From positions 1-28,742 of the IMG/VR virus record IMGVR_UViG_3300021960_008854: 28,742 nt of DNA; one strand, written 5' to 3'. The position numbers and the translations under genes were made by a program. The notes under the pieces are model-generated. The model saw only the letters and a list, made by a program, of their open reading frames with translations, did no database searches and was not told the DNA's origin. The first letter of the stretch is position 1. Each line of letters starts with the position of its first letter. The DNA is from a virus. Positions 2,234 to 24,383 of the stretch are shown in pieces.

Positions 2234-2256
2234 AAAGTTACAAAACTGTAACTTTT
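2233..2256. terminator. Bidirectional intrinsic terminator between convergent genes
   Basis: A perfect 10-bp stem (2233-2242 with 2247-2256) closes a 4-nt loop. On the plus strand the stem ends in TTTT followed by ATTTCTTCTTTT; on the minus strand it ends in a run of five T. It contains the last base of the subtilase stop and the whole stop codon of the minus-strand gene. It would stop transcription from both sides and marks the left border of the minus-strand cassette. Confidence 0.8.
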
Positions 2257-2855
2257 ATTTCTTCTTTTGGAATACTAGGAAATTTTATAGAATTATCTGC
2301 ATGGTGAACTTTTCTATTGACACTTGTATTTTTGTGCCCTACACCCATCATAAGAACAATATCATCTGAAGTGCCTAAAATATCTTTGATAGCATTTCCG
2401 TCGAAACAAGCACAGCATCCTGTACTATATCCTAATATATTACTAGTTAAATTTAAAAATCCAGATGCAATGCCTGTTGCCATGTGCAAATCACGTAAGA
2501 CCGTATTTTCTTTGTCTCCATATTTTCCTTGTTTTATTACAATACGATCTGAATTTTCTGTATTGTCAGTAAACACAAAAAGAATATTTGCTAATGTTTG
2601 GCTGTTAGTAACAGTTTTTTTATCATCAATTAGATAAAACCCAGATGTATGTTCATGAATACGTTCTATAATATTTCTATCTGTAATAGCATAAACACTG
2701 TAAAATGCACTGTTTTGTTTACTTGGGCATTGTGTTACAGAATGAATTAGTAATTCTAAATCTTCTTCTGGTATTTCCTTTGACAAATCCCAGTTACGTT
2801 GACAATGTTGTCCTCTAATAATTGCTTTTTTGATATCTGTACGAGTAAGTTCCAT
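2238..2855 (-). CDS. Nitroreductase-like flavoprotein, paralog 1
   Basis: A 205-aa protein of nitroreductase size. The N-terminal QHCQRNWDLS (16-25) fits the FMN-phosphate-binding Arg region, CPSKQN (43-48) matches the family's PS-x-x-N element, and GIASGFLNLTSNILGYSTG (128-146) is the typical core helix. It is followed directly by CCACF (147-151), an unusual Cys cluster. Family members use FMN and NAD(P)H to reduce nitro groups, quinones or C=C/C=N bonds, or to oxidise cyclised peptides. The substrate here is unknown. It is the last gene of the minus-strand block and related to two genes 1.2-3.1 kb upstream. A strong AGGAGG lies 5 nt before the ATG, and a late-type promoter motif lies 17 nt before it. 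Confidence 0.75.
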   Translation of the reverse strand: MELTRTDIKKAIIRGQHCQRNWDLSKEIPEEDLELLIHSVTQCPSKQNSAFYSVYAITDRNIIERIHEHTSGFYLIDDKKTVTNSQTLANILFVFTDNTENSDRIVIKQGKYGDKENTVLRDLHMATGIASGFLNLTSNILGYSTGCCACFDGNAIKDILGTSDDIVLMMGVGHKNTSVNRKVHHADNSIKFPSIPKEEIKVTVL

Positions 2856-2872
2856 TGTACCCTCCTATAATG

Positions 2873-2880
2873 TATTTATT
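2873..2880 (-). promoter_or_regulatory. Candidate T4-type late promoter (AATAAATA)
   Basis: The minus strand reads AATAAATA, matching the NATAAATA late motif of T4-like marine phages. It ends 17 nt before the ATG of the nitroreductase at 2855, the same spacing as before the fibre gene at 26502. The predicted transcript would carry a short leader including AGGAGG. It overlaps the stop codon of the upstream radical SAM gene, so chance is possible. Confidence 0.5.
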
Positions 2881-3991
2881 ATATTTTACGTTTGGGAATC
2901 TTACTATCTGCACTACTAACACAACTTTCTGTCATGCAAGGCATAGGCTTATCAAATAACTTAAATCCTGTTTCAATGTTTCCTAAAGGTACATCATGAC
3001 AACTGTAAGAGCGTTTAATGCTACCATCAGGTTCACGTATAATTATACCCTGATAACCGGCATTACAACTCCAGCCTTTAAATTTATTAAAGTTAAATGC
3101 ATTAAAGCGTTCGGCTTGATCCATGTACCACGGATTGCCGTTTGAATCTCTAAACTCTACTTGAAAATGCCAAGGCACACTTGCATCAGGTTTATGCATT
3201 GCATCAGCAGGTATTTCAAACTTTGGCTTTGGACGTTCACTCCATACACGTTTACTTTCTGTATATGCACGTTGTGGCATGCCATTCCAAAGTCGCTTTA
3301 AGTCTTCTTCTTTGTATCCTTCAACGATTCTCGATGCCGTAGGGTCGGACTGCGGTTTAAGGGTGACGTTGATACCTTGCTCATGAAAGAACAAAGCGTT
3401 TTCCCAATCACGTTCAAACCAGTCCGGAACCATAACCATATTGATCGTAATTTGTACATCATGCTCCTGACACAGTATCAGCTTGTCTGCAAAGTCTTGC
3501 ATTTTTTCTTTAGTATTTAAGTGTTCTGTGTGAAGGCTTGCTGTAATACTTGCTCTATGGAATGGCTTTACACGTTCTACATAGTCCTCAAACCAACTCA
3601 TAGGACGACTACAGTTTGATGTCATATGAACAGAGGTATAATTAGTGTTATCCACATCATCAGCAAGATGCTGTAAAATATCCAAGTATCCTGGATGAAA
3701 AGTAGGCTCGCCCCCAGACAAACTAAAATGAAAAGAATTAAATCCGTTGCCACGTGCCTGCCTTTTTATTTCATCAATTGTTCGTAAACATAATTCTGTT
3801 GGACGGTGGTCTTTTCTGTCGCTACGAGCGTAGGGCCAACAATAGCTGCAACGATAATTGCAAAACCTGCCAAGAAGCCAACTAACAGTAAAAATATCTC
3901 TATAAAGCAGAGTACGTTGTCCGACTTGAACAATGTCATCAAAGGGAATTTTAGTAAAGTCATAATTTGACCATTTTAAATCTTCAGTCAT
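2879..3991 (-). CDS. Radical SAM enzyme with SPASM-like Cys-rich C-terminus
   Basis: A 370-aa protein. C44-x3-C48-x2-C51 (CNYRCSYC) binds the SAM-cleaving 4Fe-4S cluster, and GGEP at 93-96 contacts the SAM amino group. The C-terminus has C309 (SCNAGYQGIII), a PDG turn at 321-323, then C331, C352 and C357. This resembles a SPASM/twitch domain that would hold auxiliary Fe-S clusters. Such enzymes make 5'-deoxyadenosyl radicals and often modify peptides. Closest relatives in the window by layout are the genes at 10602 and 16505. It has its own sigma-70-type promoter and no clear ribosome-binding site, with the ATG 6 nt after the -10 box. It lies between two nitroreductase genes, which suggests a shared pathway. 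Family certain, substrate unknown. Confidence 0.93.
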   Translation of the reverse strand: MTEDLKWSNYDFTKIPFDDIVQVGQRTLLYRDIFTVSWLLGRFCNYRCSYCWPYARSDRKDHRPTELCLRTIDEIKRQARGNGFNSFHFSLSGGEPTFHPGYLDILQHLADDVDNTNYTSVHMTSNCSRPMSWFEDYVERVKPFHRASITASLHTEHLNTKEKMQDFADKLILCQEHDVQITINMVMVPDWFERDWENALFFHEQGINVTLKPQSDPTASRIVEGYKEEDLKRLWNGMPQRAYTESKRVWSERPKPKFEIPADAMHKPDASVPWHFQVEFRDSNGNPWYMDQAERFNAFNFNKFKGWSCNAGYQGIIIREPDGSIKRSYSCHDVPLGNIETGFKLFDKPMPCMTESCVSSADSKIPKRKI

Positions 3992-3997
3992 ACTATT

Positions 3998-4026
3998 ATT
4001 ATATACTTGAAGAAGTACAAAGTCAA
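3998..4026 (-). promoter_or_regulatory. Sigma-70-type promoter giving a predicted leaderless mRNA
   Basis: On the minus strand, TTGACT (4026-4021) and TATAAT (4003-3998) are separated by exactly 17 nt. Only 6 nt separate the -10 box from the ATG at 3991, so transcription should start at or next to the start codon. The layout is identical to the promoter before the gene at 26431. It probably uses host RNA polymerase early in infection. Confidence 0.72.
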
Positions 4027-4045
4027 TGTAAAACTGACTTTATAC
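4015..4045. promoter_or_regulatory. Dyad/stem-loop overlapping the -35 box
   Basis: Inverted arms AAAGTCA (4019-4025) and TGACTTT (4035-4041) flank a 9-nt loop, with three further pairs after one mismatch (4015-4017 with 4043-4045). One arm covers most of the -35 box of the promoter into 3991. There is no good U-tract for minus-strand transcription, so an operator or mRNA hairpin fits better than a terminator. Confidence 0.4.
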
Positions 4046-4052
4046 TATTTTT

Positions 4053-4676
4053 TTATATATACGAAACTTCAATAGTTTCCTTTTTGCGTGTTGGAAAAAC
4101 TAAACCGCTTTTTTCGTGCAATCTACGATTTCTTGTTTCATCTTTAAAACCAATACCTTGCATCATAGCAGGACCGTTTTCTAAACCTAGATAATCTCTA
4201 ATCTCATCTTTTAAGAAACATTGACAGCATCCTGTGTTGTACCCTAATATCGATGCTGTTAGATTTACATAACCACTTGCAATACCTATTGCCGTAGCCC
4301 TGTCTCTCTTAAATACTTCAATATCAGATTCGTCTGCTGTTGCCCATTTTTTAACACCTTTTTGGCTTAAAGAATTTAATGTGAGTTCCTCATATAAAAA
4401 TAAAACATTAGCCAAAACTTGGCTATTAGTTGTAGGCACTAAAATTCCATTTTTATCTGCTGCATGTGTTCCTGGCGAAAGCTCATGAAGTTTTTCAATT
4501 GTTTGTCTGTCTGTAATTACATGCAATTTATAGAATGCAATATTTTGTTTACTTGGACAATTCGTAGCGGCATGTACAAGAATCTCAATATCATCTGCAG
4601 GCACTTCCTGAGATAGATCAAAATTCCTTTGGCAATGTTGGCTTTTAAGAACTGCTTTTTTAATATCTGTATACAA
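4053..4676 (-). CDS. Nitroreductase-like flavoprotein, paralog 2 (TTG start)
   Basis: A 207-aa protein clearly paralogous to the one at 2238. It shares TDIKKAxxxxQHCQRNxDLS at the N-terminus, CPSKQN (40-45), and GIASGYVNLTASILGYNTG (131-149) followed by CCQCF (150-154). The same FMN-dependent reductase or oxidase role is inferred. The only suitable start is TTG at 4676, preceded by AAAGGAGA at good spacing; no ATG occurs upstream of the conserved N-terminus. A late-type motif lies 24 nt upstream, in the gap after the third paralog. The TGCCxCF element is shared only with paralog 1, so these two probably have closer functions. Confidence 0.75.
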   Translation of the reverse strand: MYTDIKKAVLKSQHCQRNFDLSQEVPADDIEILVHAATNCPSKQNIAFYKLHVITDRQTIEKLHELSPGTHAADKNGILVPTTNSQVLANVLFLYEELTLNSLSQKGVKKWATADESDIEVFKRDRATAIGIASGYVNLTASILGYNTGCCQCFLKDEIRDYLGLENGPAMMQGIGFKDETRNRRLHEKSGLVFPTRKKETIEVSYI

Positions 4677-4700
4677 TGTAGTTCTCCTTTCGTTGTATAG

Positions 4701-4708
4701 TATTTATG
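4701..4708 (-). promoter_or_regulatory. Candidate T4-type late promoter (CATAAATA)
   Basis: The minus strand reads CATAAATACTATA, close to the T4 late consensus TATAAATACTATT. It ends 24 nt before the TTG start at 4676, and AAAGGAGA falls inside the predicted leader. A TTGACA sits just upstream, but no -10 box lies at sigma-70 spacing, so the late-promoter reading is preferred. Confidence 0.55.
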
Positions 4709-4710
4709 TG

Positions 4711-5379
4711 TCAAATTACTAATTTACGAGGTATATCTTTAGGAAAAGACGAACTTTTAAATTTTCCATCAGTATGTAATGTGTGGTCATCATATAATGG
4801 ATACCCTACCCCGAGCATTACCTGTAAATGTTTTGGATTTATATTATACGGTTCTAAAAATTCAACAGGAAGGGCACCAAAATCAAAACAACGGCAAAAT
4901 CCTGTACGCATGCCTATTGTATTTGCTGCAATACCAATAGCACTAGCTGCTAGACCAATTTCTAAATTTGTACAACGTATCCAAAATTCATCAGGTGGTG
5001 GATCTCCACGTTCTCTTTTTAATCTGTCTTCTGAAACTCTAGTTTCTGGTTTTATAAAAAAAAGAAAAAGTAAATTGGCATCAGTTTGAGGATTTTGTAT
5101 TCTGCCATTTTCTAGCTCGGCTAATGTGGAGGCAGATAAAAAATGTCTTTCATCGGGACCATTTGTAGCAGAAATAGAAAATTCTTTTATTTTTTTTCTA
5201 TCTTTTACACAAACAATTTCAAAGGAATCTAAATTTTGTTTTGTAGGTGTACTATATCCAACATCTAACAACCAATCAATTATCGAATCATCTACAGTTT
5301 GTGATAAATCAAAATTACGTTGGCAGTGTTGAAAATTTTTTACTGTTTTTAAAAATAATTCCTGTTTATTACTCTGCAT
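4711..5379 (-). CDS. Nitroreductase-like flavoprotein, paralog 3 (diverged)
   Basis: A 222-aa protein, the most diverged of the three. It keeps FQHCQRNFDLS (16-26), TPTKQN (44-49) and IGLAASAIGIAANTIGMRTG (141-160), followed by FCRCF (161-165), where the other two have CCxCF. GVGYP (190-194) matches the family's C-terminal GYP element better than its paralogs do. FMN-dependent redox activity is inferred. An insertion around residues 84-96 and a longer loop at 112-135 account for the extra length. No ribosome-binding site is visible. TATAAATA lies just 5 nt before the ATG, overlapping the upstream stop codon. It is 8 nt downstream of the 2OG oxygenase gene. Confidence 0.72.
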   Translation of the reverse strand: MQSNKQELFLKTVKNFQHCQRNFDLSQTVDDSIIDWLLDVGYSTPTKQNLDSFEIVCVKDRKKIKEFSISATNGPDERHFLSASTLAELENGRIQNPQTDANLLFLFFIKPETRVSEDRLKRERGDPPPDEFWIRCTNLEIGLAASAIGIAANTIGMRTGFCRCFDFGALPVEFLEPYNINPKHLQVMLGVGYPLYDDHTLHTDGKFKSSSFPKDIPRKLVI

Positions 5380-5384
5380 AATAT

Positions 5385-5392
5385 TATTTATA
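5385..5392 (-). promoter_or_regulatory. Possible late promoter motif (TATAAATA) abutting a start codon
   Basis: An exact TATAAATA, the T4 late -10 consensus, followed by ATATT and the ATG at 5379. If active it would give a leaderless transcript. It includes the TAA stop of the preceding gene and is unusually close to the start, so it may be a chance match. Confidence 0.3.
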
Positions 5393-6065
5393 CCAATAGT
5401 TCTTGCAAAGACCCTTCAAAATTGATATGCAATCCTATTTTCCATGGCCCTTTTAATGATCCTGTACAATGCAAATTATTACTGTTAAATAATATTAAAT
5501 TGCCGGGTTTAAAATTATAGGCTGTTCCTGTAAGCCCTTTGAAATATTCTGGCTTATGTTTGCCGTCTGTAAGGTATTTGTAATAAAAATCTTTGTCAAT
5601 ATCTTCATCAGTTTTATCATAAACACGATCATCAGTATAAGGTGTTGCTTGAAGTATTTTATTTCTATCGAAGTTGTACTTTACATCTCTGTCACCATAC
5701 CAAGTTTGTCCAAACCCGTTATCTACCCATTGATCAAAAACTATAAAATGTTGTTCAATAGAATCATCTGGCAAATATATAGGCAGTAAAGCATTTATCA
5801 ATTGGTAAGGTTCTTCAGAATCAACATGAGTTGTATAAAGGTTAGAATGCTTGTAAATGTTACCGCCTTGTCCTTTAATAGTTTTAAAATATTTTGATAA
5901 TATAGGATCTAACACATCCTTTAAATGCGTCCATGGCGAATTTATTTTAATTACATTTGGATTGTTTGGTTTATTGATATGCAAATCTGTATTAGTATCA
6001 AAAAAGTCTTTGATATAGTTGCAAACTTCTAACGGAATGCTGTTTTCAAAACAGGTATGTCTCAT
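5388..6065 (-). CDS. 2-oxoglutarate/Fe(II)-dependent oxygenase-like protein
   Basis: A 225-aa protein from the ATG at 6065. That start is preferred over the ATG two codons upstream (6071), because the GAGG at the end of the preceding gene lies 9 nt before it rather than 3. The iron-binding facial triad is readable as H80-V-D82 (THVDSE) and H199 (NLHCTG). K209 in WKIGLHINF takes the place of the 2OG-binding basic residue, and FKPGNLILFNS (185-195) is the typical strand before the distal His. Such enzymes hydroxylate or desaturate small molecules, peptides or sugars. It overlaps the upstream radical SAM gene by 20 nt, so translation is coupled. A second 2OG-type domain occurs two genes upstream, at 7211. 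Confidence 0.72.
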   Translation of the reverse strand: MRHTCFENSIPLEVCNYIKDFFDTNTDLHINKPNNPNVIKINSPWTHLKDVLDPILSKYFKTIKGQGGNIYKHSNLYTTHVDSEEPYQLINALLPIYLPDDSIEQHFIVFDQWVDNGFGQTWYGDRDVKYNFDRNKILQATPYTDDRVYDKTDEDIDKDFYYKYLTDGKHKPEYFKGLTGTAYNFKPGNLILFNSNNLHCTGSLKGPWKIGLHINFEGSLQELLV

Positions 6066-7227
6066 AACCATTTTCCTCTATATAAGCAACAAGGTCAGGA
6101 TTATAATCTTTTATATTAGTATTATAAAATCCATCTAGTTTTTTGGTCGTATGTAAAAACTCAAACCAATGCTTCTCATTGTACTTACCGCTTTTTACAA
6201 GTGTGTTTATTAGTTTTGATGCAGTTTTATTATCTTTATTTTTATCTAAAACCCAATCTATATAGGATTGCGGAGCATACAATAGCGAAAGATATCTAGG
6301 ATATCTAACAAAATCAACACTCACATGATAGTTGTTTTCTTCGATTAAAAAATTTAGACTATCTGCTAATTTATTTGCTGTTAGCAAACTAACTGCACAA
6401 TGAAAACTTACGTGTATATTTTTAAATATTTTTTCGTATGTTTGTGCATTTTTGTATGTTTGCTCATAGGTACTTCCAAATCTTTGATAATCGTTTACTT
6501 TGTCGTATGCATCTAAACTAACATTGATGAAAAGCATTTCATATTTGTCAAGTTTTTCTATAATTTTTTTACTAGGTATTTTTGTACCATTAGTTGCGAT
6601 TTCTAATTTTATTTTACTAGGATCTGCTCTTTGCTCAATATAATCTAAAAATTTAATAAAATTTGGAGAAACAAACGGCTCGCCCCCTAACAATTTTATA
6701 TAAACTAAATTGGACAAATCTATATTTTTAAATTTATCAAAACTGGGTTGTAATTTTTTATAACGATCAACTTCTTCTAAAAACTCATCTCGTCGTTGTA
6801 ATTTACTACTAAATTTACTATCACACATTTTGCATTGTAAATTACAAATGTTATCTAAACTCATTTCAACGTATCGTACGCAATCAAATTCATTTGTGTA
6901 TTGTTCTTTTAAATACGGAGAAAATCTATAATTTAAAAATTTTCTTAAAGACTTTCTGTCAGTAAGTTCGCTATTTTGTTCTTGTATATAACACTTTGTA
7001 CATTCTTCACGCTTCACTCCATCTAACATATCTTGGCGAAGTTTTTTTAGATAGTCGTTATTCATTTCTTGAATACCATTATTTTTTAAGGCATCTAAAT
7101 TTACGTTTACTGGATCATCTAAAGTCAAGTATCTACAACACGGCTTGAGTGCTTCGTCGGGACGCACACATAGATGAATCCATGGCAACATACAAAATGT
7201 ATCACTTTTATTATAATCTGTCGACAT
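6046..7227 (-). CDS. Radical SAM enzyme, N-terminal Cys/twitch class
   Basis: A 393-aa protein. The N-terminus carries FCMLPWIHL (11-19), a PDE turn (23-25), C30-C31 and CTKC (76-79). The radical SAM motif CNLQCKMC is at 128-135 (C128, C132, C135), and GGEP at 181-184. The CxxPW...PDG...CC block resembles a SPASM-type half-domain placed ahead of the barrel, a layout shared by six other proteins here. The auxiliary cysteines could bind an Fe-S cluster. The protein has no counterpart C-terminal Cys cluster. It sits between the methyltransferase/oxygenase fusion (17-nt overlap) and the 2OG oxygenase (20-nt overlap). Family secure, substrate unknown. Confidence 0.92.
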   Translation of the reverse strand: MSTDYNKSDTFCMLPWIHLCVRPDEALKPCCRYLTLDDPVNVNLDALKNNGIQEMNNDYLKKLRQDMLDGVKREECTKCYIQEQNSELTDRKSLRKFLNYRFSPYLKEQYTNEFDCVRYVEMSLDNICNLQCKMCDSKFSSKLQRRDEFLEEVDRYKKLQPSFDKFKNIDLSNLVYIKLLGGEPFVSPNFIKFLDYIEQRADPSKIKLEIATNGTKIPSKKIIEKLDKYEMLFINVSLDAYDKVNDYQRFGSTYEQTYKNAQTYEKIFKNIHVSFHCAVSLLTANKLADSLNFLIEENNYHVSVDFVRYPRYLSLLYAPQSYIDWVLDKNKDNKTASKLINTLVKSGKYNEKHWFEFLHTTKKLDGFYNTNIKDYNPDLVAYIEENGYETYLF

Positions 7228-8452
7228 CTATACTTGCAAATCCAATTATACTACGTTTGTATTCTGTGCTTACATCTGGCAACAAATTATCTTTTAAAAA
7301 CCAACTACTACTATGCCATCTGCGTGTGTCAAAAATCATAGCTGTTCCTACTTCCCATTTGTATGCACTATGAAACTTCAAATCTGCATATTCTTTATAA
7401 TATTCTGTGCCGTGCGGATTATATTTTAATACTTCATCGTCAAACAAATAATCTTTACGATACTCATATACTTCGTTATTGTCTGCATATCTCATTTCGC
7501 CTTTTCTATATATTAGTTTTCGAGGAATACTAGATACAATATTATAATTTATAGTATACGGTTGTTTACAATTCCAATCTAAAGGAATAATCACTCCTAA
7601 AATAATATGACAATCGTGTGTAATTACTCCGTCTGCCTTAGGTTTCCAACTATTAGGAAAACTTGTGTAATCTGTATGTAATCCTGCAGGTTCTCCACTG
7701 TGGAAATATTCAAAATTCCAATCGTACTTGTGATCCATTAGTTTTGTAAAATAATCTGTCAGTTCTTTTTTTGTTTCAATCGGTACTGAACAAAATTTGT
7801 TAAAATTATTTCTACCTGTAAATTTTACATTATTAGAATCTAAATATTCTAATTGTTCTTGTTTATATTTTTCTACTGGCAAATCTATCGTGTGTGAACC
7901 AAAATTATTATAATATATTTTATAAGCAGCAGATCCGTTTGCTTCGCCTACTTTTATATTACCTAAAGAATTTATAGCATTTAATATTTTTTCACCATAA
8001 GTTTTATGTCTTAGATTTCTTGCTATTATTACACTGTCTTTATTTAAAAAAGTTTTTGCTTTATTGTAAACTTTTTTCCAGTCTATACTTTTTCCTACTA
8101 ACCCCATACTAACAATATCAAATTTATGTTCATAATTCCAGTCTTCAAAATATGCTTGATACATTTCTGCAAAAGGACAATTTTTGGAGAACATATCTTT
8201 TGTGATTACTTCTCCTAAATTATTTTCATCAAAGTAGCCTTTGTTCCAATCAATTTGTAATCGTACTTGCTCTTGTTCCCATGGATCAACTGCAACATAT
8301 TTCCAATCAGGAAATTTTGGCTGTAGGAAAGAAAACAGTCTTCCGGCGGCTGCACCAATCTCTAATATTGTGCCGGTCTTGCCAATGTTACGCATTTGTG
8401 ATGCTACAAGTTCCATTTCATCTATAGATATCCAACCATCGACTACTGTCAC
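7211..8452 (-). CDS. Fusion of SAM methyltransferase and 2OG-Fe(II) oxygenase-like domains
   Basis: A 413-aa two-part protein. Residues 1-180 look like a class I methyltransferase: motif I ILEIGAAAG (29-37), motif II acid D56 in VAVDPW, and FDIVSMGLVG (111-120). Residues 210-413 look like a 2OG-Fe(II) oxygenase: H259-T-D261 (GLHTDYTSF), H380 (RRWHSSSW) and R400 in KRSIIGFAS as the likely 2OG-binding Arg, with GTAMIFDTRRWH before the distal His. The fusion would methylate and hydroxylate a common substrate. The start is GTG at 8452, in a 4-nt overlap with the PLP enzyme gene, with AAGGA about 10 nt before it. The oxygenase call is somewhat firmer than the methyltransferase call. Confidence 0.75.
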   Translation of the reverse strand: MTVVDGWISIDEMELVASQMRNIGKTGTILEIGAAAGRLFSFLQPKFPDWKYVAVDPWEQEQVRLQIDWNKGYFDENNLGEVITKDMFSKNCPFAEMYQAYFEDWNYEHKFDIVSMGLVGKSIDWKKVYNKAKTFLNKDSVIIARNLRHKTYGEKILNAINSLGNIKVGEANGSAAYKIYYNNFGSHTIDLPVEKYKQEQLEYLDSNNVKFTGRNNFNKFCSVPIETKKELTDYFTKLMDHKYDWNFEYFHSGEPAGLHTDYTSFPNSWKPKADGVITHDCHIILGVIIPLDWNCKQPYTINYNIVSSIPRKLIYRKGEMRYADNNEVYEYRKDYLFDDEVLKYNPHGTEYYKEYADLKFHSAYKWEVGTAMIFDTRRWHSSSWFLKDNLLPDVSTEYKRSIIGFASIDVDRL

Positions 8453-9372
8453 TGTCTTTCATTCCTTTCAATTTGATTTAATCCCTTATCAGTACCACGC
8501 TCATCAAATATACCTTCTATTAGAAAACGTAAGGGTGTACGCACACCAAATTGGTGTTTGCCGTTTTCATCGGATAACCATCCTACATGTATACTATTGG
8601 TTTCTTCTAGATCAAAATCATTACAAACTTTTGAATATAATTCACTATAATTTGACCACCAATAATCAGGTCCAAAATGTCTCATTGCTTCAACGCCTAT
8701 CCACATATCACTTACATTTGCATAAGCAAAGTCGTTCATAATACTTATTGGTCCTACAGTTTTTTCTCTAGTATAACGAATACCGATACGTTGACTGCCC
8801 ATTCCTAATGCTTTGCTTAGACTTACACTTACGCTTTGTACAGCAGGATGTGTCACATCAAATTCAAAATTTCTACACTGCCCAAACCAAGCACCGTCAA
8901 TATGAACTGGAATATCATGCTCATCACAGTAATCTAACAATAAATCAAACTTATCGTGATAGCCGGTGGTGATACAACTAGGATAACTTACAATAAAAAC
9001 ATCGCCTTTGATCAATTCTTTGTAATTAGTTATTTGTTTGACTTTAAAATCTGTTAGTCGTCTGTGATACTTGTATTCACCTTTGTACGTAGCTATATTA
9101 GCGCCGTACAGCTGGTGTAGTTCGTCTAACTGATGTGTAGTACCAAGTATAGCATCTCTGCGTGTAAAGGTCTCTAAACCTATGTATTTTACATATTTAT
9201 GTGCATGTATCCAAGAGTCAACTTCTTTAAGAAAAACTTCTGTGTAAGCGTGTGGATCTTTTGGATAATCTTTCATTCTTAAATTTTGTCTAAATTTTGT
9301 AAACTTACTTAGGTACATAGGACGTTGACGTCTAGTGCCTAGCATTTCAAATGTTATATCTTCATACTTCAT
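8449..9372 (-). CDS. PLP-dependent aminotransferase-like enzyme (fold type I, compact)
   Basis: A 307-aa protein. VSYPSCITTG (128-137), IPVHIDGAWFG (154-164, with D159 as the PLP pyridine-N partner) and SVSLSKALGMGSQRIGIRY (182-200, with K187 as the Schiff-base Lys) form the typical fold-type-I series, in correct order and spacing. At 307 residues it is shorter than the usual 370-430: the N-terminal part before the PLP site and the C-terminal small domain both look reduced. It could be an aminotransferase, decarboxylase or lyase; motifs alone do not separate these. It overlaps the upstream radical SAM gene by 11 nt and the downstream fusion gene by 4 nt. Confidence 0.78.
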   Translation of the reverse strand: MKYEDITFEMLGTRRQRPMYLSKFTKFRQNLRMKDYPKDPHAYTEVFLKEVDSWIHAHKYVKYIGLETFTRRDAILGTTHQLDELHQLYGANIATYKGEYKYHRRLTDFKVKQITNYKELIKGDVFIVSYPSCITTGYHDKFDLLLDYCDEHDIPVHIDGAWFGQCRNFEFDVTHPAVQSVSVSLSKALGMGSQRIGIRYTREKTVGPISIMNDFAYANVSDMWIGVEAMRHFGPDYWWSNYSELYSKVCNDFDLEETNSIHVGWLSDENGKHQFGVRTPLRFLIEGIFDERGTDKGLNQIERNERQ

Positions 9373-10594
9373 ATTTGTCTAACCATGGCCACAATTCTCG
9401 CCAATTTGTTCCTCTACGTATATCAAATTTGTCTAGCATTTCTTTCAAATATTTTATATCTTCTAAAACATGTTCTTGCCTATTTACTTTTTTTCTAAAT
9501 CCGTCAATCCATACCTTCGTTTGTTTATCAGACGTATTTGCAATAGCTTGATCAAATTCTTTATCAAAAAATCCAAAAGGAAAGATACCTGCATCCATGT
9601 AAGGACGGCCGCAAACAAAACTCAAGCTATGTTTAAAATTTCTTATTTGTTTCCATTCTGTTATTTTTTTACACAAGTCTGGTAAAGTTTGCATTGTCAA
9701 GCTAATAATTGTACCATGTATTTTTAAATCAATATCTGGGTAATCATTTAAAATAGTTAAAAAGTTTTCTTCCCAGTTTTTTAAATTTAATCCTGTACGT
9801 ATATATTCTTGCTGTGGCCCCCAACAATCTAAACTGCATACTATTTGAACACCAAATAAATGATCACGTTGCTTTAAACTAGATAGCTTGTCTAACATTC
9901 TACGTAGTTTTTGATTTTCAACTTTTAAATTTGAAAAAATACCAAATCTTAAATCTGGACATGGTTTATTTTCAAAAAAATCTATATTTTTTTCTAATTC
10001 AGGTTGAAAGAAAGGTTCACCACCTAATACATTATAATGATAAATTTCTTTAGCATTTTTTTCTAACCATTTCCAATGCGCTTCGAGCATTTTAGGATAT
10101 TGCTTTCTACCTTCTTCTAATTTTTCTAATTCACGGCCAGCAATTGGGCCAAACTTTTTTTCCTCATATTCCCATACAGTGCTGTATTCTGCACTACAAT
10201 ATATACAACTAAGATTGCATAAATTATTGAAGTAAACTTCTACCATACGAGGTGTTACATTTATTGCCTTTGAATTTTTATCTAATTCAGGAGGAGCAAA
10301 ATCTGTATCAGCGTGTGCCTTAGTCCTATCGCTTGGTGCACCAGCTCTTTCTAAATTCCTACAATATTCGCAGCCGTCTCCAGGCCACTGTCCATTCAGC
10401 ATTTTCTTGCGATGTTCTAATTTTAAAGGAGTATTATGAAAATCTTTATATGTTTCAGGTGTAATATTACTTGATTTGACTCTATGACAACTATTAGTTG
10501 AACCTTCCATTAGCCTTATTGTACTCCACGTCCATTTGAGTAAACATACTGGATCATTTAATTTATATTTTTTTAAAAAATTGTCTTTTTTCAT
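9362..10594 (-). CDS. Radical SAM enzyme, N-terminal Cys/twitch class (divergent)
   Basis: A 410-aa protein. The radical SAM motif is CNLSCIYC (C126, C130, C133), followed by GGEP at 191-194. The N-terminal auxiliary region is present but altered: VCLLKW (16-21) in place of CxxPW, one Cys (C36, NSCHR) where relatives have CC, and CEYC at 75-78. YSTVWEYEEKKFGP after the cluster motif parallels the SxxW...K element of its relatives. The loss of one Cys from the CC pair may change or abolish an auxiliary cluster. The ATG lies 7 nt after the stop of the preceding radical SAM gene and has no strong ribosome-binding site. Confidence 0.9.
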   Translation of the reverse strand: MKKDNFLKKYKLNDPVCLLKWTWSTIRLMEGSTNSCHRVKSSNITPETYKDFHNTPLKLEHRKKMLNGQWPGDGCEYCRNLERAGAPSDRTKAHADTDFAPPELDKNSKAINVTPRMVEVYFNNLCNLSCIYCSAEYSTVWEYEEKKFGPIAGRELEKLEEGRKQYPKMLEAHWKWLEKNAKEIYHYNVLGGEPFFQPELEKNIDFFENKPCPDLRFGIFSNLKVENQKLRRMLDKLSSLKQRDHLFGVQIVCSLDCWGPQQEYIRTGLNLKNWEENFLTILNDYPDIDLKIHGTIISLTMQTLPDLCKKITEWKQIRNFKHSLSFVCGRPYMDAGIFPFGFFDKEFDQAIANTSDKQTKVWIDGFRKKVNRQEHVLEDIKYLKEMLDKFDIRRGTNWRELWPWLDKYEV

Positions 10595-10601
10595 TTGTTA
10601 T

Positions 10602-11498
10602 CTATATCCATTTTTCTACCACTGCGTCTAATTTACAAGGACATGCTCTATAATCGCATACAATAGGATCATCTGGCAATGTGTAGTTGCCTGTTTTAAT
10701 ATTACCTAAACTGCCGCCTACTCCTTTTGTACATCTTTTGATATTACCATTAGGCTCAACCATAAGTCTACGTATACCAGCTGTACAAGTATATCCTTCA
10801 AATTTATGTAATCCTTGATCTAATACTTTCATAAATTTCATAGGCTCACCATTAAAATGTAGTGTTTGAGGTATTTTCCAATCAATGCCAAACGGTCTCA
10901 TTTTATTATAACTATTATTCTGTATCCATTCACGTTGTTCGTCTGTATATTCAAAATAACTTGTACCATCTATACTTGTTCTAGTAAACTTTGGTGTTAT
11001 TTCAATGTTTAAATTTTTTAATCTTTCATACAATGCCTTTGCTCGTTCAAAGTTGTCGGGCACAATCATCAAAGGTACACTTACACTGGCCTTGTGTTGC
11101 ATTATTTTTGCAACTTCAACAAAGTGATCATCATTTGCTTCTTCGGCATGCCAACTTAAAAATACAAATGCACGTTGAGTTTTAAACTGTTCCCAATAAC
11201 GTAAAGTTCTGCTGGCATTTGTTGCATATTCTACAAAAACATTCTCATCGCTGATAGTATCTACAAACTCTTGAAACTTGGGCCACACTGTTGGTTCTCC
11301 ACCTAACACTTCGACATAAATGTATTTGTTACGTTTTTTTATATTTTCTATCAAGTCTATATACGGTTGCCAGTCGGTCGGCCATCTATGACTGCCATCT
11401 CTATGATAATCATTACAATAACTACAATTATAGTTGCAGACGTTGTGAACAAATAGTGTAAGCACACAACAGTCTAAATTTTCACTTGTTATATGCAT
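10602..11498 (-). CDS. Radical SAM enzyme with SPASM-like C-terminus (short)
   Basis: A 298-aa protein. CNYNCSYC (C21, C25, C28) starts almost at the N-terminus, and GGEP is at 66-69. The C-terminus has C238 (TCTAGIRRLMVEPNG), C256 (RCTKG), then C281, C286 and C288 near the end. The CxAG...PNG...RC...LGNI order is the SPASM signature, so auxiliary Fe-S clusters are likely. It shares this layout with the 370-aa protein at 2879, including the LGNI-TG segment. SPASM enzymes commonly modify ribosomally made peptides, but no precursor is adjacent. Its start lies within the end of the SGNH hydrolase gene (17-nt overlap), with GAGA 7-8 nt before the ATG. Confidence 0.93.
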   Translation of the reverse strand: MHITSENLDCCVLTLFVHNVCNYNCSYCNDYHRDGSHRWPTDWQPYIDLIENIKKRNKYIYVEVLGGEPTVWPKFQEFVDTISDENVFVEYATNASRTLRYWEQFKTQRAFVFLSWHAEEANDDHFVEVAKIMQHKASVSVPLMIVPDNFERAKALYERLKNLNIEITPKFTRTSIDGTSYFEYTDEQREWIQNNSYNKMRPFGIDWKIPQTLHFNGEPMKFMKVLDQGLHKFEGYTCTAGIRRLMVEPNGNIKRCTKGVGGSLGNIKTGNYTLPDDPIVCDYRACPCKLDAVVEKWI

Positions 11499-12099
11499 CT
11501 ATTTTCTCTTTAAATTTTTTTGCTGCTACCTTATGAGCGTTTTTGCCAGGATGTACTTTGTCTAAAGCTAAATCAATTTCTCGTATCTTTAAAAAATCCA
11601 CATCTTCAATATGAACTATATTAAATTTAGGTGGATTTACTATATATTTCAAATTAATTGTAAAATGATAGTTTTTTAAATTTAAATAATCTAAAAATAA
11701 TTTTGCATAATTCATACAAGTCCACATTTGATGATAATAATCAAATTCTCCAAGTTTTAATCTTTGTACATACCAAGGTTTCATAAAATTATCCAAAGGC
11801 AATGCCTGAGTCGCAATGCCATTTTCATCTATAATACAATCTCTTGTTGGATACGTCCATAATATAACAACTATATCTGATCTGCTGAAAGAAAAATTTT
11901 GAATATAATATAATATTTCTCTGTTAGATGCCCCACATTTTGAAAGATTAATTGTAGGTATTTTTAATTTTTTACCTAAAATATAAGGCCACGCAAATTT
12001 ACTAGGATTATCTCCCGGTTGGTTAGGACGCACATGACAATCTGGTAAACCATGACCATATGTGTAGCTGCAACCAAATGTGATCAATCTACCAGTCAT
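11482..12099 (-). CDS. SGNH/GDSL-type hydrolase
   Basis: A 205-aa protein from the ATG at 12099, chosen because AAGGA lies 8 nt upstream and because ITFGCSYTYG then begins at residue 6, as expected for this family; an open frame extends nine codons further upstream. Block I is GCSYTYG with nucleophile S11, block II KCGASN (with N59), block III WTYPTR (81-86), and block V D180-x2-H183 (DKVHPG). The full set of Ser, Gly, Asn and Asp/His residues is present. Family members deacylate sugars, lipids or peptides; removal or transfer of an acyl or acetyl group is plausible here. No signal peptide, so it is cytoplasmic. It overlaps both neighbouring radical SAM genes. Confidence 0.82.
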   Translation of the reverse strand: MTGRLITFGCSYTYGHGLPDCHVRPNQPGDNPSKFAWPYILGKKLKIPTINLSKCGASNREILYYIQNFSFSRSDIVVILWTYPTRDCIIDENGIATQALPLDNFMKPWYVQRLKLGEFDYYHQMWTCMNYAKLFLDYLNLKNYHFTINLKYIVNPPKFNIVHIEDVDFLKIREIDLALDKVHPGKNAHKVAAKKFKEKIDAYNK

Positions 12100-13435
12100 A
12101 AAATAAATCCTTGTATTGCGGTACAATATCTAAAATGTTTTGTTTACGTATTTTATCTAATTTTAATGTAGTATCAATAAACGTAGGTAAATGCTCGCTA
12201 TAATCTTCACTATTCATAAAACGTTCAACCTTGTTTAATATATCAACAAAGTTTGTTTTAATTTTTTGTTCATAATCTGTTGATTGAATCCATAACTTAT
12301 ATTCCGCAAATGTATTACATACCTGTTGTTTATATTCAGCAGGTAACATTTTTACATTATAATGTTTAGGTGCATGACACATATGATATGTTACTATAGG
12401 TTTTGCTGTGCTCAATGGATTAAATTTTGTTAAACCACTATCTACTAATTTCCAACGCATAAACTCAGGTAAGTGAAATAAATTCAACGGTGTTACAGTA
12501 TAAGTAAACCAACCTTTGAGATTTATATTCTGGTTAGCTTCTAGTTTTACCATATTATCATAAACTTTGTCCCAATTTGCAGGAGTTCGTTGATAATTAA
12601 AAACATCGCCATATCCGTCAATACTAGCACCTATACGTATTTGTTTAAATTTTTCCCATAATTTTACAATATTTTTTGTTACATTTGTCAAATTACTATT
12701 ATATTCTATTTCAATATTATGACTGTTTCCATTAGCAACTAGTCTTTCTAATAGTTCTAAATGTTCATCTATAATTAAAGGCTCACCGCCTACTATATAC
12801 ATACGCTTTGTATTGTGAGTGTGTTTTTCAAACTGATTCCAGAACCAATTGCTTTGTTTAAACCAATTATAGCTATCTGTTTCCCATCTGCCTTTTTCAT
12901 TTTTTTCTAAAACAACTGTACCATGAGTATCGTTAAATTGATTCCTATTGTGTAATTTTACATAATCATTAAACCATGTGTGACTTTCTGTAGGGCCACA
13001 CATGCGACACTTTAAGTTACAAAAATTTCCATATCGTATATCAAAAAATTCAATAGGTTGTGCATTAGTATCAATACTGCCATCTTCGTTGGTAACAGCT
13101 CTAGCTGCTTCTACATCAAAGTTACCACTATACTCACCCCACTCTAAAACTTCATGCTCACGTCTGCTTTTGATGCCATTTATTTCTTCTTGTCTACAAC
13201 GTTCACATTCTGGATGCCACTCGTCATTTAGCATTTTTAAACGTACTTCTTTAAGAAGTTCTCCGTTCCTGGCATTGTCAATTTCGTGCTTACCTATATT
13301 GTAGGGTGTGCCATCTTCCATCCTTACTATGCCTCTATTCTTAGTATAGCTATTGGTATTACAACAGATACGAATATCCCCGTTGTTTCTAATATTGATA
13401 CTATTCCACGGCATTGGACAAAATGTTTTAGACAT
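12089..13435 (-). CDS. Radical SAM enzyme, N-terminal Cys/twitch class (tandem copy A)
   Basis: A 448-aa protein. The N-terminal block is FCPMPWNS (5-12), NNGDIRICC (17-25) and CERC (77-80); then CNLKCRMC (C139, C143, C146) and GGEP (216-219). It is very similar along its length to the next gene upstream (13428), including FxDxRxGNxCNLKCRMCGPT, the YIVGGEPLxI segment, the IGASxDGxGD strand and the C-terminal HAPKHYNVKMLP region. The pair is a tandem duplication. The long insert (about 150-205) after the cluster motif and the 100-residue C-terminal extension are specific to this pair and the 466-aa relative at 20629. It starts in an 8-nt overlap and has no clear ribosome-binding site. Confidence 0.93.
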   Translation of the reverse strand: MSKTFCPMPWNSINIRNNGDIRICCNTNSYTKNRGIVRMEDGTPYNIGKHEIDNARNGELLKEVRLKMLNDEWHPECERCRQEEINGIKSRREHEVLEWGEYSGNFDVEAARAVTNEDGSIDTNAQPIEFFDIRYGNFCNLKCRMCGPTESHTWFNDYVKLHNRNQFNDTHGTVVLEKNEKGRWETDSYNWFKQSNWFWNQFEKHTHNTKRMYIVGGEPLIIDEHLELLERLVANGNSHNIEIEYNSNLTNVTKNIVKLWEKFKQIRIGASIDGYGDVFNYQRTPANWDKVYDNMVKLEANQNINLKGWFTYTVTPLNLFHLPEFMRWKLVDSGLTKFNPLSTAKPIVTYHMCHAPKHYNVKMLPAEYKQQVCNTFAEYKLWIQSTDYEQKIKTNFVDILNKVERFMNSEDYSEHLPTFIDTTLKLDKIRKQNILDIVPQYKDLFYDW

Positions 13436-14798
13436 CTTTAGGTTCAGTGTCCTTTAGTAATTCGTATAATTCTGGAATGTATGTTTCAATACTATGTCCA
13501 CGTATTTTATCTAAACGTCTTGTGGCTTCCCAGAACTGTGGTAAGTATTCGCTAAAATCTTTTGCATACATATAATCAATATATTGATTTAAAAGTTTTT
13601 CTACTTCACGCTTGCTGGCTTTTTTACGATCATCTGTAAAGTTACTGTCTTCGATCAGCTGAATAAGTTTAGGTTTATATCTTTCGTATTTGGCTTTAAC
13701 AGCATCTTTAGCAAATTGAGGTAACATACGCACATTGTAAAACTTTGGACCATGTAGCGGATGTGGTGTAATTATAGGACGTACATTGTCGTCATTTATT
13801 TTTGGTATTTTGTTTAATATAATCCATTCCATAAATTCAGGAAAATGTAAAACATTAAACACATTGATAGTAGCAGCAATCCATACTTTAAAATTACCTT
13901 CTGCTTTACTAAGTTTAATAAGATTTTCATGTATTTTATCAAAATGGCTTGGATATCTCATATAATAGTTTAAATCGCCAACTCCATCGACACTTGCACC
14001 AATTTGAATACGCTTAAAATGCTTCCAAACATCCCATGCTCGTTGAGGTATATTTGTTAGGTTACTGTTATATTCTACAGTAATTTTATTGGCAACACCT
14101 TCGTCTACACATTTCTGTAAAAATTCATAGTGCCTGTCAATCATAAGTGGTTCACCGCCTACAATATACAGTTTTCGTATTTCTTTAATATTGGCATCCA
14201 TTTGTTCCCAATAATGATCACTTTCGTGCCAATCGTATAAATTGTGCTCAGGTGCATATTTGCCTTTTGAATTTTTTACAAGGTTTACTTTGCCGTGACT
14301 GTCTCTATAACTAGGACCCCATAATTTTACTTGGTCTTCATACCACATATTACTATCAGTAGGACCACACATACGACATTTTAAATTACATAAATTGCCA
14401 AATCTTACATCATAAAAACTACAATCTATTGCATCAACATCAATAGTACCATCTTCTTGTGTATGCGATAATAAGTCTTCCCAATTATGATGTCCGCTGC
14501 GTATCCATATATCGTTTTCATAAACTTGTCGACTACGCATGCCTGATTCGTTTTCAGTTTGACATCTTACACAATCAGGATGCCATTCTCCATTCATCAT
14601 AGCTTTGCGTATATCTTTGGCTATATCACTATTTCTAGTTTCTTTTAAATTTGCAGTACGTGCATTGTAAACCTTGCCTTCAGAATCTTTCATTATTCCG
14701 CCAGTAGGACCGTGCTGTGTTTGACAACACACTCTTATATCGCCGTTAGCTCTGAGACTTTGACTCATCCACGGTATTGGACATAGTGTGTCTTTCAT
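13428..14798 (-). CDS. Radical SAM enzyme, N-terminal Cys/twitch class (tandem copy B)
   Basis: A 456-aa protein. It has LCPIPWMS (5-12), ANGDIRVCC (17-25), CVRC (76-79), CNLKCRMC (C137, C141, C144) and GGEP (214-217). It is the tandem paralog of the 448-aa protein just downstream. The two have separate substrate-contact regions in their C-terminal third, so they may act at different positions of one substrate. The 30-nt gap before it holds GGAG (14804-14807) 5 nt before the ATG, directly preceded by TATAAT (14808-14813). No good -35 box is seen, so a promoter there is doubtful. Family secure, reaction unknown. Confidence 0.93.
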   Translation of the reverse strand: MKDTLCPIPWMSQSLRANGDIRVCCQTQHGPTGGIMKDSEGKVYNARTANLKETRNSDIAKDIRKAMMNGEWHPDCVRCQTENESGMRSRQVYENDIWIRSGHHNWEDLLSHTQEDGTIDVDAIDCSFYDVRFGNLCNLKCRMCGPTDSNMWYEDQVKLWGPSYRDSHGKVNLVKNSKGKYAPEHNLYDWHESDHYWEQMDANIKEIRKLYIVGGEPLMIDRHYEFLQKCVDEGVANKITVEYNSNLTNIPQRAWDVWKHFKRIQIGASVDGVGDLNYYMRYPSHFDKIHENLIKLSKAEGNFKVWIAATINVFNVLHFPEFMEWIILNKIPKINDDNVRPIITPHPLHGPKFYNVRMLPQFAKDAVKAKYERYKPKLIQLIEDSNFTDDRKKASKREVEKLLNQYIDYMYAKDFSEYLPQFWEATRRLDKIRGHSIETYIPELYELLKDTEPKDV

Positions 14799-14828
14799 GT
14801 TTTCTCCATTATATACGTATTTAATAAA

Positions 14829-15974
14829 TTAAAATAATTCTGGCGTGATTAGTGGTTCAATTTTATCCCAAAGCTCAGGATTTTTATCCATCCAGTGTTC
14901 GTTTCTAATTTTGTTAAATTGCGAATCATTTCTTACAAACAAACCAAAATCGCCATCGACATTCATTTCATTTTTTAACAAATTTATAATTTTTTTATAA
15001 ATGACTGTTGTTTTACTTTCTAAATCATCTAGGTAATCTAAAAGCCAAAGTTTAATATCTTTTGGTAAGTTTCTAGGTTGCATCCATTGAGGGCCATCTA
15101 CAACAACACATTCATGATATAGTTCATTATCTTCACAAAAGTCAATTATTTCGTGTAACTTATTTACATTATAAGCACTAATAGCACTGTGAACATTTAT
15201 ATTGTTAAAATGCTGTTTATACCATTGCACATTTTTAGAAACATTTTTCCAATTACTATCTTTTCTTAAAAATTCATTGAGTGTACCGTAACTGTCAATA
15301 CTCAAATCAATATTTACATTTTTACATTGCTTTAACAAATCTAATAATTCATCGTCTGGAGTAATGCTTACATTTGTCACTAATAATATTGTAATATTTT
15401 CAAGTGTACATTTGTTCAAGACTTTTTTAAGTTTGGCTTGTTCCATCATAGGCTCTCCACCTAAAACTTTAATAAAACGTAAATCACTTAGATCGTAATT
15501 ATCAACAATTGTATTGTCAGTGATAACACCTTTAGGTATTTCCATGCCTAGTTTTTTAGCGTCACTATACCAATGTGTGCTCAGCTGAGGCATACACATT
15601 CTACACTTATTATTACACACGTTAGATAATGCTAGATCAATATTTGTAAGTTTTTTTATACGACCTAAACCTTCTTCTTCGCTTGGAAGTCCAAAGTCAC
15701 TACCCCAAGGTGCAATTAAATCTGTACGCATACTTCTTGCACTGTGTTTTTCATCTTCGTAGCATTTTCTACAACCATGCACATATTCATCATTGAGCAT
15801 TTTTTGGCGTAACCAATTCATATATTCGTGATTAAACGGATCAGGATGTGCTACATTTAGATCTTCAGGGACTTCTTCCTGTCTAAAGATACAACAAGGA
15901 AATATCTGTCCATCTGGACGCATCGCCATATGATGGAATGGCATTACACATGCATGTTTAGGTATCTTCTTCAT
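14829..15974 (-). CDS. Radical SAM enzyme, N-terminal Cys/twitch class
   Basis: A 381-aa protein. It has ACVMPFHHMAMRPDG (8-22), C27-C28 (FPCC) and CRKC (68-71); then CNNKCRMC (C120, C124, C127) and GGEP (172-175). The overall length and the LxYLDDLES-type C-terminal helices match the 393-aa protein at 6046 more than the 450-aa pair. The intact RPDG...CC block suggests a functional auxiliary site. The gene overlaps the dehydrogenase gene upstream by 17 nt and is followed by a 30-nt gap. The ATG is preceded by GGA about 8 nt upstream. Confidence 0.93.
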   Translation of the reverse strand: MKKIPKHACVMPFHHMAMRPDGQIFPCCIFRQEEVPEDLNVAHPDPFNHEYMNWLRQKMLNDEYVHGCRKCYEDEKHSARSMRTDLIAPWGSDFGLPSEEEGLGRIKKLTNIDLALSNVCNNKCRMCMPQLSTHWYSDAKKLGMEIPKGVITDNTIVDNYDLSDLRFIKVLGGEPMMEQAKLKKVLNKCTLENITILLVTNVSITPDDELLDLLKQCKNVNIDLSIDSYGTLNEFLRKDSNWKNVSKNVQWYKQHFNNINVHSAISAYNVNKLHEIIDFCEDNELYHECVVVDGPQWMQPRNLPKDIKLWLLDYLDDLESKTTVIYKKIINLLKNEMNVDGDFGLFVRNDSQFNKIRNEHWMDKNPELWDKIEPLITPELF

Positions 15975-16521
15975 ACCACATTTCCGGTTGCATAGGATCT
16001 ATACTAATTTCATTTATATTTAAGTGCTTTGGTTGATCTACAATCCACTTGATATATTCAGCAGCTACATCAATATCCATGCATTTTCTATCAGGGTGTT
16101 TTTCTTGATTATTACTAAGTGTTCCAAAACTAATATAACTTATTTTTGGTCCACTTGCCCATACACCTGTTAGTCCTAGCGTGTTTGAATAATCTCGCAA
16201 TGCTTTCTTTTCTGCATTATACAACCATGCGCCTCCTTTTTTTACTCTGTCTGTTGTGCTACCTATATTGATAATATGACAGTTGTGTTTTTCTAGCACA
16301 CACTTTTTATACACAATGTCTAACAAGCTGCTTTGATTAAATCTAAACAATGCACTACAATTTACAAAAACATCGTGTGCTAATACTGCTTCGGCACAGC
16401 GTTCCATGTCTAATTTTTTTCCAAAATCATAACCTGTTTCTCTACTGATAAATTCTGCATCAGGATATAACTTGTAAAGTGCAGCAGCTACTCCAAAATT
16501 TTTGTTACCTGTTATAATCAT
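15958..16521 (-). CDS. Short-chain dehydrogenase/reductase-like protein (compact)
   Basis: A 187-aa protein with the SDR pattern in order: a glycine loop TGNKNFGVA (4-12), VNCSA (53-57) in place of NNAG, IINIGSTTD with S88, and Y101-x3-K105 (YNAEK). Ser, Tyr and Lys are at normal mutual spacing. It is shorter than the usual 240-260 aa and has a shortened N-terminal half, the glycine loop being TGxxxFG rather than TGxxxGIG. It probably oxidises an alcohol or reduces a ketone with NAD(P)H on a pathway intermediate. AGGAG lies 6 nt before the ATG. It overlaps radical SAM genes on both sides by 17 nt. Confidence 0.75.
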   Translation of the reverse strand: MIITGNKNFGVAAALYKLYPDAEFISRETGYDFGKKLDMERCAEAVLAHDVFVNCSALFRFNQSSLLDIVYKKCVLEKHNCHIINIGSTTDRVKKGGAWLYNAEKKALRDYSNTLGLTGVWASGPKISYISFGTLSNNQEKHPDRKCMDIDVAAEYIKWIVDQPKHLNINEISIDPMQPEMWYEEDT

Positions 16522-17659
16522 TCATAACTCCTAAATCTATATGATTACCTAAAACATCAAAAAATCTATCTTGCTTCATACTTTTTGGCGCACACAATCC
16601 ACAACCGCAAGTTTGTTTTGGACATACGATTGTAGGTAAACTACCTGATTCCATTTGTTGTCTAAGTTCTTCTATAAGTTTTTTACCTTCACTAATTTTA
16701 CCTATACGTCCTCGTTTGCTATCAAAACGTGCTTGGCAAGTTTGATGGTGGTAAATGCTATCTGTTTGTTGTTCTAAATGTAGGAAGAACCAATTGACAC
16801 TACAATTCCATCCTTTGAATTCTCTAAAGTCTACAAAATTACTTTTGCGTGACTCGCTGCCATTGTGTAATAACATATCTCTGCTACCGCAACATGGACG
16901 TCCAATACTATTTCCTAATTTTTTTGCATTTTTTACAACATCTCCAGCAGCACTACTAGCATATACTGCATCATTTTTTTGTTTCCAATAGTTTTTCATC
17001 CAAGCAAGTTGTTCTTCACTGTACTTGTGTGCAAATGTGGGTTTACTATCTGGCTCTTCGCCTATGACTCTTGGTACAAAGTCTACTTCGTGTGCCTTTA
17101 AGAACTCGCATAATTCTACACATTCGTCAAAATACTCTGCATGGAACATAACATTTACACTAACTGTAAATTGATACATTGATCCTTGATATGCAAACTG
17201 TAAAATTCTGTCTTTTACTTGCTGCTTTAGTTTATCATCGCTTTCGCTGTGGTAACTTACCGTTGCGTGACCAAAATTTTCCATAACTGCTTGGCCCATT
17301 TTTTCACTCATAGCACCATTAGTGGTTAGAGCAAATCCTGCTTCCCAACGGTCGGCATATTTTTCTTCGTATTGCTGTTTTAGATATTGAGCAAACGGAA
17401 TAAAGTGTGGGTTGACTGTAGGTTCGCCACCTGTAAATCCAAAACTAGCTATTTTTGTATTGCGATACTGCATATATAAGTCAGTATATTCATACAAAAA
17501 GTCAACATTGTTTTTTAATTCTTCAAGTGTTGCGTGTTTACTGAAATTATCGTGCCTATGTGCAGGGCAGTATGTGCAATCATAGTTGCATCTACGTCCT
17601 GTATCCCAAGTAACTTGAAAAACTTTGCCTGTTAGCAGGTCAATTGTATCAAAACTCAT
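16505..17659 (-). CDS. Radical SAM enzyme with extended Cys-rich C-terminus
   Basis: A 384-aa protein. CNYDCTYC is near the N-terminus (C24, C28, C31) and GGEP at 77-80. The C-terminal half carries many cysteines: C256-C257 (RPCCGSR), C286 (WNCSVNW), C308 (QTCQARFD), and a tight group C346, C351, C353, C356 (CPKQTCGCGLC). This is enough for one or two auxiliary Fe-S clusters in a SPASM-like domain. N-terminally it resembles the proteins at 2879 and 10602 (xWxxGRxCNYxCxYC). AAAGGA lies 5 nt before the ATG. It overlaps the PP-loop gene upstream by 11 nt, so its start depends on that gene's translation. Confidence 0.93.
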   Translation of the reverse strand: MSFDTIDLLTGKVFQVTWDTGRRCNYDCTYCPAHRHDNFSKHATLEELKNNVDFLYEYTDLYMQYRNTKIASFGFTGGEPTVNPHFIPFAQYLKQQYEEKYADRWEAGFALTTNGAMSEKMGQAVMENFGHATVSYHSESDDKLKQQVKDRILQFAYQGSMYQFTVSVNVMFHAEYFDECVELCEFLKAHEVDFVPRVIGEEPDSKPTFAHKYSEEQLAWMKNYWKQKNDAVYASSAAGDVVKNAKKLGNSIGRPCCGSRDMLLHNGSESRKSNFVDFREFKGWNCSVNWFFLHLEQQTDSIYHHQTCQARFDSKRGRIGKISEGKKLIEELRQQMESGSLPTIVCPKQTCGCGLCAPKSMKQDRFFDVLGNHIDLGVMNDYNR

Positions 17660-22029: not shown

Positions 22030-22040
22030 ACTGTACTTAC

Positions 22041-24166: not shown

Positions 24167-24383
24167 CGAGCACCAACTTTACATCTTTACCAGGACCAGT
24201 TTTACTAGGCAAATCTCCGTATTGTTCTACATACCATTCGATAACAGCACGGTACCAATTTTGACTATTGTGATGTGCTTTTTTATTAAACTGCCAAATA
24301 TTGTTGTTTGTTGCTTGCATAGTGCTTAGAGCTCTTGCACTTTCTGTTTGAAGTTCACGTAATGTTAAATCATTTATATCCAA
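24153..24383 (-). CDS. Small uncharacterised protein (TTG start)
   Basis: A 76-aa protein with no recognised family. It fits tightly between two genes, overlapping each by 14 nt. AAGG lies about 10 nt before a TTG start at 24383, so it is probably real. The N-terminal half (LTLRELQTESARALSTMQ) looks helical; the middle is rich in Asn, Trp and His (NNNIWQFNKKAHHNSQNWYR); the end is charged and Gly/Pro containing. There is no leader-peptide Gly-Gly site and no Cys. It is the only member of the minus-strand block without an enzyme signature, so it could be a carrier, chaperone or peptide substrate, but nothing proves this. Confidence 0.6.
   Translation of the reverse strand: MDINDLTLRELQTESARALSTMQATNNNIWQFNKKAHHNSQNWYRAVIEWYVEQYGDLPSKTGPGKDVKLVLDVQV

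Follow-up and report, generated by a model that had tools for sequence, protein, structure and literature searches.

ALKBH8, the eukaryotic tRNA wobble-uridine enzyme, has the domain order RRM-AlkB-methyltransferase (MT). Its single chain combines the MT with a 2OG-Fe(II) oxygenase, and the two enzymes modify the same substrate one after the other: the MT makes mcm5U, which the oxygenase then hydroxylates (PMC4682802). Two further reports describe a T4-like marine virus whose genome has 12 radical SAM genes (PMC5332604) and pelagimyophages that carry cassettes of radical SAM genes in a variable region (PMC7029224). With such radical-SAM-rich T4-like marine viruses on record, the setting of the locus described here is known in outline; in the parts covered here, these reports mention neither an MT-oxygenase fusion nor a product of the islands.

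We analyzed a 28,742-nucleotide stretch of viral DNA (IMG/VR record IMGVR_UViG_3300021960_008854; hereafter, the window) that encodes a protein in which an MT is fused to a 2OG-Fe(II) oxygenase, denoted OX1. With a probability of roughly 60%, we consider this protein to be a bifunctional tailoring enzyme encoded by a T4-like marine virus, in which OX1 would be the core and the MT an optional part, both acting on a shared intermediate by a logic like that of ALKBH8. Both proteins carry an MT and a 2OG-Fe(II) oxygenase in one chain; unlike ALKBH8, the viral protein has the MT first and the oxygenase last, lacks an RRM, and is encoded in a viral radical SAM island. A Pfam search of the 413-amino acid (aa) chain yielded no RRM or AlkB match, so that by domain content it does not qualify as an ALKBH8. 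The author of a preliminary description of the sequence knew of no standard family with this domain order; a characterized protein combining the two enzymes exists in ALKBH8, although its domain order is the reverse. By analogy, ALKBH8 is the closest functional counterpart of the viral fusion, which apparently is not its relative.

A two-domain protein in a radical SAM island

The features of the window that are relevant for this analysis are the following:

2238..25413, minus strand: modification island of tightly overlapping genes (radical SAM, nitroreductases, PP-loop, SGNH-like, PLP enzyme, oxygenases)
8449..9372, minus strand: PLP-dependent enzyme, decarboxylase/aminotransferase-like (weak Pyridoxal_deC match), overlapping the fusion gene by 4 bp
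7211..8452, minus strand: fused MT-OX1 gene, a single open frame of 413 aa with a GTG start, both folds supported
7919..8452, minus strand: MT domain (class I SAM-dependent methyltransferase), residues 1-178, supported by profile, motifs and model
7898..7918, minus strand: junction and linker, approximately residues 179-185, placed by the strand ends in the model and an 8-bp difference from the split L005/L006 genes
7211..7915, minus strand: OX1 (2OG-Fe(II) oxygenase), residues ~180-413, supported by H259/D261/H380/K399, the model and 22 relatives
6046..7227, minus strand: Twitch-domain radical SAM enzyme downstream of the fusion (NF033640, 254 bits; cutoff 170), overlapping the fusion gene by 17 bp
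5388..6071, minus strand: OX2, a second candidate 2OG-Fe(II) oxygenase, with H82/D84/H201/K211 invariant in 13 relatives

Altogether, roughly 12 genes of the island encode radical SAM enzymes; besides these, it holds three nitroreductases, two PP-loop proteins with weak resemblance to QueC, an SGNH-like protein and the PLP enzyme. The N_Twi_rSAM profile produced 12 matches in the window and matched all 33 viral records searched, with 2 to 21 matches in each; a T4-type Gp23 capsid gene is present in 8 of these records. A precursor peptide within the island was considered and set aside, given that the tightly packed genes leave little room for one.

Several other genes of these loci deserve mention. 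Adjoining the island, on the plus strand of the window (26502-27941), lies a gene for a repetitive GDVxGxVTG-type protein, possibly a tail or fibre protein. In the L041 record (G008:C1:21335-24172), an open frame of 1020 aa contains two complete radical SAM domains of the twitch type, one after the other, and is apparently a further fusion. A protein combining B12-binding and radical SAM domains directly follows OX2 in L036 (11533-12966), and the nitroreductase-type proteins of L046 (10829-11833), L045 and L048 are 334-338 aa long, compared with 205-222 aa in the window. OX2 itself has no Pfam match, and a lysine (K211) stands where an arginine would be expected. A close relationship between OX1 and OX2 is not supported, as only a local profile match (44 columns, 43% probability) connects them.

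The preliminary description placed an MT fused to a 2OG-Fe(II) oxygenase at 7211-8452, and this assignment is borne out by the single frame and by support for both folds. That the frame results from a sequencing or assembly error uniting two genes is scarcely credible: an intact MT occurs in the fusion of a single contig, that of the window, but no ATG occurs in any frame within approximately 75 nucleotides on either side of the junction, so that two genes merged by a simple one-base sequencing error would not account for the frame, and fused frames recur in four other records. Thus, the fusion is present in five records representing three virus genotypes. The fused frames of L010, L011 and L012, from three metagenome assemblies, are 375 aa long and differ by no more than 3 nucleotides, and that of L013/L066, in a 518-kb virus, is 377 aa long. 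The MT-OX1 fusion in the window is a genuine, structurally supported two-domain protein.

Folds and active sites of the two halves

The MT half has the features of a class I SAM-dependent MT, namely, a Rossmann fold, motif I (ILEIGAAAG, residues 29-37, as read in the preliminary description), the beta-2 acidic residue D56, and motif IV (FDIVSMG, at 111). Methyltransf_23 matches the window protein weakly (Pfam, E 5e-4, under the curated cutoff), whereas its nearest separate relative, the standalone MT of L066 (64% identical), clears the cutoff with 28.8 versus 27 bits. An MT profile (A9, which includes the window protein among its rows) matches window positions 7919-8446 at 1.4e-83, and the MT profile matches PDB 3dtn (MM_2633) at E 5.6e-6. 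Another alignment (A5), in which standalone MTs were mixed with many oxygenases, was discarded because the MTs came out misaligned. In the full-length model, the MT half shows the alternating strand and helix order of class I MTs, and its structural matches in PDB are 3dtn, TrmR, MfnG and further methyltransferases. The viral MTs share motif I and the Rossmann pattern with class I MTs of the Methyltransf_23 type, such as 3dtn, but form a small subfamily of about 175 aa in which the fused window copy falls under the Pfam cutoff.

The mean pLDDT of the full-length 413-aa model is 69, its oxygenase half being of low confidence because of the shallow alignment, and the packing of the two halves was not taken from it. 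The MT half in this model ends in strands 166-171 and 174-178, OX1 begins with a strand at residue 185, and approximately 6 residues link the two.

The OX1 half was modeled separately with 22 viral sequences (pLDDT 92.2, pTM 0.88). The OX1 model has the double-stranded beta-helix of the 2OG-Fe(II) oxygenase superfamily, and its best matches among solved structures are almost all 2OG-Fe(II) oxygenases, including P. putida P4H (Z 13.3), SnoN (13.0) and PHD2 (12.7); Foldseek matches include the natural-product oxygenases SnoK, FtmOx1, EvdO2 and HygX. OX1 shares with P4H, PHD2 and SnoN-SnoK the fold (Z 12-13) and the HxD...H motif, but is only 8-14% identical to them, has a lysine as the putative ligand of the 2OG carboxylate, and has no sequence-profile match in PDB. 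Indeed, no sequence match for this half was obtained in Pfam, PHROGs, NCBIfam or, with profiles, PDB.

The preliminary description read here a full HxD...H plus arginine set. The first part stands: both histidines and the aspartate (the HTD of H259/D261, and the distal H380) are invariant in the 22 aligned relatives, and therefore the motif is not due to chance. The arginine does not, as position 400 is variable (R, K, Q, L, C or F; arginine in the window); the conserved basic residue is Lys399, following the distal histidine and invariant in 22 of 22 relatives. By the alignment and the predicted model, Lys399 falls where the last strand begins, in a K-x-S position, which suggests that it is the 2OG ligand.

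Split, fused and decayed forms

Each of the 33 viral records has exactly one full-strength OX1 match, and 15 of them have an MT. In most relatives, OX1 is a standalone gene of approximately 220-270 aa, and the MT genes, too, are mostly separate from it; because most relatives either have separate MT and OX1 genes or lack an MT, the fusion is confined to a few viruses. The commonest position of the MT gene is directly before OX1, and the two abut or overlap in L005/L006, L042, L045, L048, L049, L057 and L062. In L005/L006, two tandem MT genes precede OX1, the second overlapping the OX1 start by 8 bp, and the DNA alignment of the window with these loci has an 8-bp gap exactly at the junction, spanning the stop codon of the MT and the ATG of OX1. 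The fused frame probably arose when two adjacent genes of an operon, overlapping each other, lost these two codons, a scenario that the split relatives support. In the MT tree, the window MT clusters with the MT of L066 and the degenerate MT halves of other fusions (88/97), whereas in the OX1 tree the window falls among unfused relatives (92/90), a pair of topologies that fits one as well as two fusion events.

Additional MT genes lie elsewhere in the islands (L042, L044, L063, L066, L114), with up to two per virus; in L114, at 6320, an MT-like gene (209 aa) follows OX1 instead of preceding it. These dispersed genes would be expected if the fusion served co-expression only, with the MT and OX1 acting on different substrates of one island. 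However, the prevalent placement of the MT directly before OX1 and the retention of fused forms across diverged viruses make this explanation improbable.

The gene upstream of the fusion, which encodes the PLP enzyme, shows 67-87% identity among 16 viruses. Where a PLP gene of the window type has enough sequence downstream of it, OX1 follows in nearly all loci, sometimes with one to three genes in between. Given that OX1 is so regularly found after this gene, and an MT in only 15 of 33 records, the PLP-OX1 pair is the stable unit and the MT an optional part. Conversely, L052-L054 and L060 have OX1 and, in the stretch seen, no window-type PLP gene. PLP relatives were detected in 175 viral stretches and, among those kept (L070-L148), form two branches, with 46-88% and 35-40% identity; members of the latter have no OX1 nearby.

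The fused MTs of L010 and L013 do not have a complete SAM site: some 42 residues have been lost, the beta-2 acidic position among them, and L010 has cysteine instead of the final glycine of motif I. The decayed remnant nevertheless evolves under purifying selection, with dN 0.18 and dS 1.78 between L037 (same record as L010) and L066; for the OX1 half of this pair, dN is 0.15 and dS is saturated, and the amino acid divergence is near that of the MT remnant. In L066, a separate, intact MT (that nearest to the window MT) accompanies the degenerate fused one. These observations are compatible with an MT half that serves the oxygenase mainly for docking or substrate recognition, without catalysis, methylation having become secondary or been lost. 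The window MT, in which motif I, D56 and motif IV are all retained as in a working enzyme, argues against such a role, and we regard it as unlikely for this protein.

A stretch like the beginning of the MT is also retained at the N-terminus of some OX1-only relatives, as would be expected of a docking module. In the OX1 proteins of L034, L035, L040 and L041, this stretch, for example MKDGFKNLQEYE, is similar to GWISIDEME at the MT start. When 445 N-termini were ranked, two of these four came just under the true MTs, and shuffled sequences reach their scores with p between 0 (0/5000) and 0.014. Because these proteins form two close pairs, the resemblance is suggestive only of an MT vestige. Taken to its end, this series might depict an MT that was captured by fusion and is becoming a docking domain of a viral 2OG oxygenase, without catalytic activity but under selection, in islands with up to 21 radical SAM genes, with the window as the intact stage, L010/L013 as the degenerate stage, and the extensions in L034, L035, L040 and L041 as the final vestige. 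We offer this course of events tentatively and would not bet on it.

Proposed role of the fusion

Returning to the bifunctional tailoring enzyme, the PLP and radical SAM enzymes of the island would make an intermediate, and the fusion would both methylate and hydroxylate that same intermediate in the manner of ALKBH8, oxygenation being the conserved core step and methylation an optional decoration. The substrate could be a small molecule, a nucleotide, a peptide or a side chain of a protein. The two activities are predictions from motifs and fold alone, and catalysis, action on one common substrate and the succession of the steps are inferred. With both active sites apparently intact in the window, sequential methylation and hydroxylation of one intermediate is the most likely activity of this protein. 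The preliminary description took the fusion to imply coupled steps, which fits the two intact sites of the window but is weakened by the relatives: OX1 occurs without an MT in most viruses, MTs are usually separate genes, and the MT is degraded in two fused relatives, so that the coupling is not essential.

Demethylases occur among 2OG oxygenases, and the preliminary description accordingly raised the option that the oxygenase oxidatively strips a methyl group placed by the MT. Nothing in our results favors this option, which we deem highly improbable: the fold matches are prolyl hydroxylases and natural-product tailoring enzymes, and more than half of the records have OX1 but no MT.

The fusion protein has no match in PHROGs and NCBIfam, tblastn with the 413-aa protein gave no matches among GenBank phages, and we found no report of a viral MT-oxygenase fusion in the literature. 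A scan of a cellular genome collection with the OX1 and PLP profiles gave no confirmed relative, although such scans rest on few short patterns that distant relatives could escape. The fusion appears new in detail, and the mechanism proposed for it is plausible.

Through the fusion, a methyltransferase and a hydroxylase would be tied to a single step in a widespread, unexplained viral radical SAM pathway, and the natural fused, split, degenerate and MT-less versions provide a ready comparison of which step is essential. Because OX1 and its PLP partner were found here in viral contigs only, they are good entry points to what the islands modify.
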